A stretch of DNA of 64,000 bases, from positions 1 to 64,000 of the IMG/VR virus record IMGVR_UViG_3300025141_015211. One strand, 5' to 3'. Below the pieces are notes generated by a model. The model was not told where the DNA came from. It ran no database searches and saw nothing but the letters and a program-made list of their open reading frames with translations. A program made the translations under genes and the position numbers. Shown here piece by piece: positions 38,878 through 40,205 of this stretch; position 1 is the first letter of the stretch, and every line of letters begins with the position of its first letter. The stretch comes from a virus.

Positions 38878-39168
38878 TTAACACCTGTCTGGTTCACTAA
38901 TCTTATTGTTTTGAAGATCATTTTTTAGATGCTTCAAAACAATATGTATCTGACTTTCATGTGCATGTACAGACATCTTGTCAATAAATATCTTTTCAAA
39001 TTGCGCAAAGCTATCTATAAGAATATCTAATTTTTTTATTTCAAAAATTACGTCATCTGTGCACTGTAAAAGTACAGCTAAATCTTCTTCAGACCAATCA
39101 CATGCTTCAAGAAGCTCTGTCTGCCTTATTATGTCAACCTTCAGGGAAGTTATAAAATTGAGAAACAT
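38878..39168 (-). CDS. hypothetical helical protein, 96 aa
   Basis: ATG 39168 overlapping the upstream gene by 35 nt. Helical and acidic (EDLAVLLQCTDDVIFEIKKL). Adjoins the SH3-like gene 38689-38877 end to start. No recognised motif. Confidence 0.55.
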   Translation of the reverse strand: MFLNFITSLKVDIIRQTELLEACDWSEEDLAVLLQCTDDVIFEIKKLDILIDSFAQFEKIFIDKMSVHAHESQIHIVLKHLKNDLQNNKISEPDRC

Positions 39169-39439
39169 CTTCTAAATCCACTATGGCAGTCATTAGACCC
39201 GACTGAAATCGTGGATCAGATGATACTTTCTTAATCTTACCCTTTGACACGGGAATGTTATACACATCAAACAATTCTGTTACAAATTTTGACATTGCTG
39301 AAAGAAAAATATTCCTCGCAGTAGAGTGATTCATCTTACAACCTTCATCTGTCATCTTTTCTGCTATTTCTCTATAGCCTAACCCGCTATCAACAGTTGC
39401 ATAACCATGCTCAACTTTGTATCCTTTTGGCATCGACAT
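39134..39439 (-). CDS. helix-turn-helix protein, sigma region-4-like, 101 aa
   Basis: ATG 39439 (MSMPKGYKVEHGYATVDSGL), with GGGG seven bases upstream, is preferred over an in-frame start within the sigma gene. LGYREIAEKMTDEGCKMNHS followed by TARNIFLSAMSKFV is laid out like a sigma region 4.2 helix-turn-helix. The gene starts 4 nt after the sigma gene, whose own region 4.2 is missing. It may supply the -35 contact, or act as an independent regulator. Confidence 0.7.
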   Translation of the reverse strand: MSMPKGYKVEHGYATVDSGLGYREIAEKMTDEGCKMNHSTARNIFLSAMSKFVTELFDVYNIPVSKGKIKKVSSDPRFQSGLMTAIVDLEDVSQFYNFPEG

Positions 39440-39443
39440 AACT

Positions 39444-40205
39444 TTACCCCTTTGCGATTTGCTGAATTGTTTCTTTAGTAGCTTCAAAGTCGCTGCTAGC
39501 GACTAAATCATCAGAAATTCCAAACCTAAGCCTCAAAATTTTCTCTTCACGCTCAGATAGCCCTTCCAGGCAATTTTTTATTGCAATCATAATCTTTTCT
39601 TTATCAAGCTCACTATCAATATTTACAGCTTCATCGTCAACAATCACTTCAAGTAATGTGCGCCCTTCTGAATCTGTCCACGGATTTGTATCTAGTGACA
39701 TAATTTTTGTCAAATTTATGGACTCTATGCTGGCACGTATCATACCGTCAGACACGCCTAAAAGATCTGCAAGTTCGTTTACAGTGGGTAACTGTCCAAA
39801 CTCTTCTTCATATTCAACATTTAACTTCTGTATTTTCCAAGCAATGCTTGCTGTATGTGACGGGATCCTCACTGTGTTTCTATGCATGCTTACATGTCTA
39901 CTAACAGCTTGTCTAATCCACCAACATGCATATGTAGAAAACTTAAAGCCGCGACGCCAGTCAAACCGATCAACTGCTTTCATTAGACCAATATTTGATT
40001 CTTGAATTAGATCTTCAAAGTCACAGCCACGTTTTGCATATTTTTTTGCAATGCTTATCGCAAGCCTTAAATTTGCTTCTATCATACGATCTCTTGCAGA
40101 TTGATCTCCTTTTTCTATTGCTTTCGCAAGAACAACTTCCTGTTCTCTTGACAAAAGACTGTTTCTGGATACGTCTTTAAAATAAGAATCTAAAATATTC
40201 GCCAT
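39444..40205 (-). CDS. sigma-70-family factor lacking region 4.2, 253 aa
   Basis: Region 1.2 (DSYFKDVSRNSLLSREQE), region 2 (ANLRLAISIAKKYAKRGCDF, DLIQESNIGLMKAVDRFDW, FKFSTYACWWIRQAV), region 3.0 (NTVRIPSH) and region 4.1 (LSEREEKILRLRFGI) are clear. The chain then ends (ETIQQIAKG) where the region 4.2 helix-turn-helix should begin, so the usual -35 reader is absent. It probably directs host RNA polymerase to phage promoters. Its own promoter carries GTGTAT and TATAAT. The HTH gene behind it may complete it. Confidence 0.88.
   Translation of the reverse strand: MANILDSYFKDVSRNSLLSREQEVVLAKAIEKGDQSARDRMIEANLRLAISIAKKYAKRGCDFEDLIQESNIGLMKAVDRFDWRRGFKFSTYACWWIRQAVSRHVSMHRNTVRIPSHTASIAWKIQKLNVEYEEEFGQLPTVNELADLLGVSDGMIRASIESINLTKIMSLDTNPWTDSEGRTLLEVIVDDEAVNIDSELDKEKIMIAIKNCLEGLSEREEKILRLRFGISDDLVASSDFEATKETIQQIAKG

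Follow-up and report, generated by a model that had tools for sequence, protein, structure and literature searches.

Domain 4 of a sigma factor is normally one compact unit with two tasks, holding the beta-flap and reading the -35 element. The late regulators gp33 and gp34 of Bacillus phage SPO1 are two phage proteins serving one promoter class, a case likened to the present one by description and not by sequence. In that phage, gp28 and gp34 are the middle and late sigma factors (PMC9429907). In the bacterial SigO/RsoA system the sigma-4 domain (SigO) and the sigma-2 domain (RsoA) reside on separate chains (PMC8103513, PMC10028694). In phage T4, the term 'split sigma' has been applied to gp55 and gp33, and the late promoters have no -35 element (PMC2988020); gp33 bears no structural relation to sigma region 4 and, by itself, does not bind DNA (PMC7892883).

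Here, we describe a phage sigma gene that ends inside domain 4, and the small gene that follows it (ORF2), in a window of 64,000 nt that comprises the first part of an IMG/VR virus record 82,588 bases long. The likeness to SigO/RsoA is that one sigma activity would be shared by two proteins, both needed, but the phage sigma keeps regions 1.2, 2, 3 and 4.1 in one chain with only 4.2 apart, placing the cut inside domain 4. The SigO/RsoA precedent invoked in the sequence-only reading therefore stands as a two-protein sigma and fails as the same cut, since SigO/RsoA divides sigma-4 from sigma-2. T4 gp55/gp33 is similar in having a phage-encoded small second protein in place of sigma region 4, and differs in that the sigma subunit here resembles RpoD as far as 4.1 and a strict GTGNAA -35 marks the promoters. 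The primary sigmas RpoD and SigA are close in alignment and in the retained -10-reading region 2, whereas the window's chain is without region 4.2 and its phages have GTGNAA in place of TTGACA as the -35. In a search of the open-access literature, no account of a phage sigma divided between 4.1 and 4.2 came up, which does not prove its absence, and on the papers searched the split within domain 4 is taken as new.

The sigma gene and ORF2

The sigma subunit (Table 1) matches Pfam regions 1.2 (1.7e-10) and 2 (2.9e-22), with a weak match to region 3, and aligns over aa 7-250 to the primary sigma SigA in the PDB (7ckq_F, E 4e-50). The presence of regions 1.2 and 2, responsible for core binding and -10 reading, places it in the sigma-70 family; a complete region 4 (4.1 and 4.2) in one chain is absent. 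The Pfam region 4 model is matched at positions 1-27 of 50 only, below the cut-off, and the chain ends before region 4.2 with REEKILRLRFGISDDLVASSDFEATKETIQQIAKG and the stop, 24 residues past the RLRFG that ends region 4.1. Among 24 aligned relatives, FSTYA.WWI.Q is invariant, as are L216, R219, E220, R225, R227 and F228 of region 4.1. Past region 4.1 the tails of truncated sigmas often retain F.(I/V)T..E(L/I) (L014, L018, L019 and L063 are examples), possibly a remnant of the first helix of 4.2 or a docking segment for ORF2.

Table 1. Features of the sigma operon, its neighbours and candidate promoters in the window
Feature	Position	Strand	Basis or remark
ORF3 (LLEACDWSEE...), directly downstream of ORF2	38878..39168	-	often conserved beside ORF2; no Pfam/PHROGs match
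ORF2 (101 aa), proposed to be the separate region-4.2 subunit and -35 reader	39134..39439	-	truncated-sigma neighbourhoods, AF2
ORF2 helix-turn-helix, aa 22-31 and 38-59, recognition helix NHSTARNIFLSAMSKF	39263..39376	-	AF2, alignment
Sigma subunit, 253 aa (codons): regions 1.2, 2, 3, 4.1	39444..40205	-	Pfam, alignment of 24 relatives
Region 4.1, aa 212-229 (...LSEREEKILRLRFG), last sigma-like element	39519..39572	-	Pfam, alignment
Promoter-like site of sigma operon: -35 GTGTAT (40266-40261), spacer 17, -10 TATAAT (40243-40238)	40238..40266	-	motif search
Small ORF, 80 aa, upstream of sigma	40343..40585	-	neighbourhood-conserved; no Pfam/PHROGs match
Promoter-like site GTGTAT-N17-TACAAT	14444..14472	+	motif search
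Promoter-like site GTGTAA-N17-TATAAT, 102 nt upstream of ORF start	16517..16545	+	motif search
Promoter-like site GTGTAA-N17-TATAAT, 110 nt upstream of ORF start	24252..24280	+	motif search

ORF2 begins with an ATG at 39439, after a 4-nt gap behind the sigma stop and in a different frame; a call of 117 aa results from a start at an upstream TTG within sigma, and the conserved start is the ATG. The sequence-only reading had a sigma ending right after region 4.1 and, 4 nt on, a gene with a helix-turn-helix in GYREIAEKM...NHSTARNIF, and both points are borne out. This segment is the best conserved of the ORF2 family, whose core across 109 aligned relatives reads GYATV...YREIAE.MT..G.KMNHSTARN...AM.KFA. 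The only invariant residues in these sequences are I25 and R42, the latter in the recognition helix, and the N-terminal MSMP is conserved within the window's branch.

By sequence alone the similarity of ORF2 to region 4.2 is weak. The window's ORF2 has no significant family in Pfam or PHROGs; among the 109 family members Sigma70_r4_2 (PF08281) is the commonest Pfam match (14 members, best 3.5e-4), with none for that of the window. Profile-profile alignment (hhalign) against intact region 4 gave a non-significant score of 13.7 (shuffled profiles: mean 10, maximum 20), and despite this the alignment shows the expected register. As the score is no better than that of shuffles, homology to 4.2 is unproven on this ground. 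The ORF2 profile produced chance-like matches only when compared with PDB sequences.

Small flanking ORFs with the patterns LLEACDWDEE... and ...CYLxRExExR recur in many relatives, and many of them share with the window a GroEL-like chaperonin gene (41639-43258 in the window) a short way upstream of the sigma operon.

Pairing across uncultivated phage contigs

IMG/VR was scanned with ORF2, with sigma, with alignments of each and with two other sigmas, yielding several hundred loci; the best 80 loci per scan were retained, so the true extent is larger. When these loci were classified together, at least 159 distinct truncated sigmas were each found to be followed, on the same strand, by a homologue of ORF2, as compared to none of the 21 distinct sigmas whose region 4.2 is intact among the loci retained, and no single ORF matched both the sigma and the ORF2 profile. 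ORF2 is strictly tied to loss of region 4.2 within the family. The contigs bearing the pairs come from uncultivated phages and reach 369 kb. Between sigma and ORF2 the gap ranges from -14 to +718 nt and falls in every frame, with pairing maintained throughout; in a deep branch (L153-L184) 180-720 nt commonly separate the genes, space enough for another gene.

Copy number is one-to-one. The window's record and each of 34 split-sigma contigs (82-369 kb) have a single sigma, counted as a region 2 scoring above the family cut-off, and a single ORF2, and eight intact-sigma contigs (52-394 kb) contain no ORF2. A tblastn search of GenBank phages with the window's ORF2 and one deep relative found none, and the species genomes gave a single match, a small contig from an uncultured bin on which the pair is also split. 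Covariation between sigma and ORF2 (mean-field coupling, 170 pairs) gave no usable signal, with no enrichment of region 4.1 and the gappy end columns apparently dominating.

The split sigmas cluster in a tree of regions 1.2-4.1, the base of which is blurred by the very long branches of L185 and L188, and may have a single origin. Six truncated sigmas of one other lineage (to which the loci L157, L183 and L425-L430 belong) also end after 4.1, with LKYGIK and a stop, and no ORF2 homologue was found for them. This lineage falls within the intact group in the tree and has thus probably lost 4.2 separately. One of its member records (G050) encodes elsewhere a 147-aa protein (L509) with a 4.2-like stretch (E 2.6e-5).

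Small Cys-cluster proteins were also observed on two of the split-sigma contigs, L507 (G001:C1:75220-75312, minus strand) and L508 (G024:C1:304470-304562, plus strand). Both carry a canonical 4.2 helix (GPHTLQEIGDIFNVTRMRICQIEK) and match PF04545 only at positions 19-49 (E 1.9e-10 and 3.3e-9, respectively).

The GTGNAA promoter class

An odd GTGTAN -35 had been read from the sequence at the outset, and counting upheld it: GTGTA-N18-TAYAAT occurs at four sites in the window, as compared to 0.12 expected, a number reached in none of 100 shuffles, and at three sites in the remaining 18.6 kb of the record (0.01 expected). One of the four lies directly upstream of the sigma gene (Table 1), and the operon therefore probably serves itself. 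Across the split-sigma loci, TGTAA is found at distance 22 upstream of TATAAT 36 times (1.2 expected) and GTGTA at distance 23 24 times (0.6 expected).

In long stretches, GTG[ACT]AA was counted per spacer before TANNAT, observed against expected. A peak at spacer 17 was evident in G007 (14 vs 1.5), G033 (7 vs 0.8) and G036 (7 vs 0.34), and the window's record has 6 vs 1.2 at this spacer. In the deep branch the peak is at spacer 18 (G024, 16 vs 0.34; G025, 9 vs 1.5; G023, 6 vs 0.5). The exceptions among the split-sigma contigs are G001, in which the motif is shifted (CTGTAAAA), and G004 and G015, with a weak GTGNAA peak or none. The same spacer counts revealed no TTGA[CT][AT] peak in the split-sigma phages, whereas two intact-sigma controls have TTGA[CT][AT] at 17 (72 vs 7.2 and 55 vs 4.5) and also at 19, and nothing for GTGNAA; a third intact-sigma control, G041, has no TTGACA peak.

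Sites in the window's record and in G007 are mostly intergenic, and the next ORF commonly starts 14-124 nt further on. In G024 (L327-L336) and G036 (L367-L373) the -10 is often 6 nt before the ATG, which suggests leaderless messages. The same -35 class recurs in split-sigma genomes of 32 to 57% G+C, and this constancy argues for a phage factor and not for one host's promoter. That a separate -35 reader would fit the unusual -35, as first proposed, agrees with GTGNAA in the split-sigma phages and the TTGACA-like element in two intact controls; ORF2 and GTGNAA are linked by association, and ORF2 would be the binder.

Structure models and readings of the pair

AlphaFold predicts for ORF2 alone a disordered N-terminus, the helix-turn-helix (Table 1) and then two further helices, with a pLDDT of 93-96 for aa 21-70. 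The pair was modelled on L027, in which the genes are in frame, by reading the stop as Q and so artificially joining the chains, with an alignment of fused and single rows. The resulting AF2 model has a mean pLDDT of 88.6 (ORF2 core 96-97) and a pTM of 0.56. In the PDB it is matched best by sigma-S of E. coli (5ipl_F), with a Z of 19.9 and an alignment that takes in 271 of the 277 residues; model residues 1-323 fall on 54-325 of that chain with a whole-chain rmsd of 15-16 A, a high value that probably reflects free placement of domains at this pTM. Since model residue 323 corresponds to residue 66 of ORF2, the predicted helix-turn-helix of ORF2 falls on region 4.2. As modelled, the joined chain spans the whole sigma including region 4, in a superposition that does not speak to domain-4 packing. 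ORF2 alone had no clear match among PDB and BFVD structures, the best in BFVD (E 0.037) being an uncharacterised uncultured-phage protein, and gp33 was absent among the matches; for the modelled ORF2, the absence of a clear structural match fits half a domain.

We consider it likely that domain 4 is completed in trans, the two genes encoding two subunits of one sigma and ORF2 reading the GTGNAA -35. This proposal of a split sigma gains support from at least 159 conserved pairs tied to loss of 4.2, from the one-to-one copy number, from the GTGNAA promoters and, as far as a model can lend it, from the joint fold over region 4. Telling against it are the profile comparison and the covariation result, the artificial joining of the modelled chains, the split-sigma contigs whose GTGNAA peak is shifted, weak or missing, the control G041 and the six truncated sigmas for which no ORF2 was found. 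We infer that one message would be translated into both proteins, the ORF2 start lying 4 nt behind the sigma stop. The 253-aa subunit would bind the host core polymerase, read the TATAAT -10 through its well-kept region 2 and carry the 4.1 half of domain 4; ORF2 would provide the 4.2 half by docking on region 4.1 at the beta-flap, with its recognition helix (NHSTARN) set on the GTG(T/C/A)AA -35, 17-18 nt upstream of the -10. The pair may then transcribe phage promoters, its own included.

One may speculate further, although we think it rather unlikely, that the sigma is modular, consisting of a common truncated sigma (1.2-4.1) and exchangeable stand-alone -35 readers, of which ORF2 would serve the GTGNAA class and a Cys-cluster protein of the L507/L508 type another in some genomes. 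To judge from their 4.2 helix, L507 and L508 are possible second -35 readers. If this were true, swapping the small subunit alone would switch promoter choice.

The main rival to completion in trans is that ORF2 is a class-II-type activator which, in the manner of T4 MotA, binds GTGNAA at the -35 position and recruits a sigma that has lost its own -35 reader, substituting for 4.2 without completing domain 4 or being part of the sigma. Such a role would be in line with the lack of significance, by itself, of the sequence homology to region 4.2, with the two C-terminal helices of ORF2, which are absent from sigma, and with the 180-720 nt between the genes in some relatives. We nevertheless regard it as unlikely, since the sigma retains a whole region 4.1 with its invariant residues and stops where 4.2 would start, ORF2 is found only where 4.2 is missing, the motif stands at canonical sigma spacing (17-18 nt) and the joint model appears to cover sigma region 4.

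It is very improbable that ORF2 is a gp33-like coactivator sitting on the beta-flap without reading DNA. The T4 pair is also termed a split sigma, and gp33, like ORF2, is a small protein with a gene of its own (PMC2988020, PMC7892883), but it reads no sequence and the T4 late promoters are without a -35 element (PMC2988020), whereas the split-sigma phages have a strong -35 at fixed spacing and an ORF2 whose helix-turn-helix keeps an invariant Arg in its recognition helix. Finally, a single gene broken by assembly or sequencing error or recent frameshift, or joined by programmed frameshifting, might be suspected from two ORFs 4 nt apart in different frames, but the at least 159 distinct relatives that are split, with gaps of variable length in all frames, and the conserved MSMP at the ORF2 start in the window's branch leave this virtually without probability, excluding both programmed frameshifting and the sequencing error that the sequence-only reading had named as a possible refutation.

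The comparison of contigs thus points to completion of domain 4 in trans, and indicates that a large, uncultivated and very diverse group of bacterial viruses makes its sigma as two proteins. The finding annotates ORF2, a gene family without a Pfam or PHROGs match in this analysis. If the halves of domain 4 are indeed made as separate proteins, the portability of -35 recognition becomes directly testable, and sigma and ORF2 together may constitute an orthogonal two-part promoter system (GTGNAA/TATAAT).
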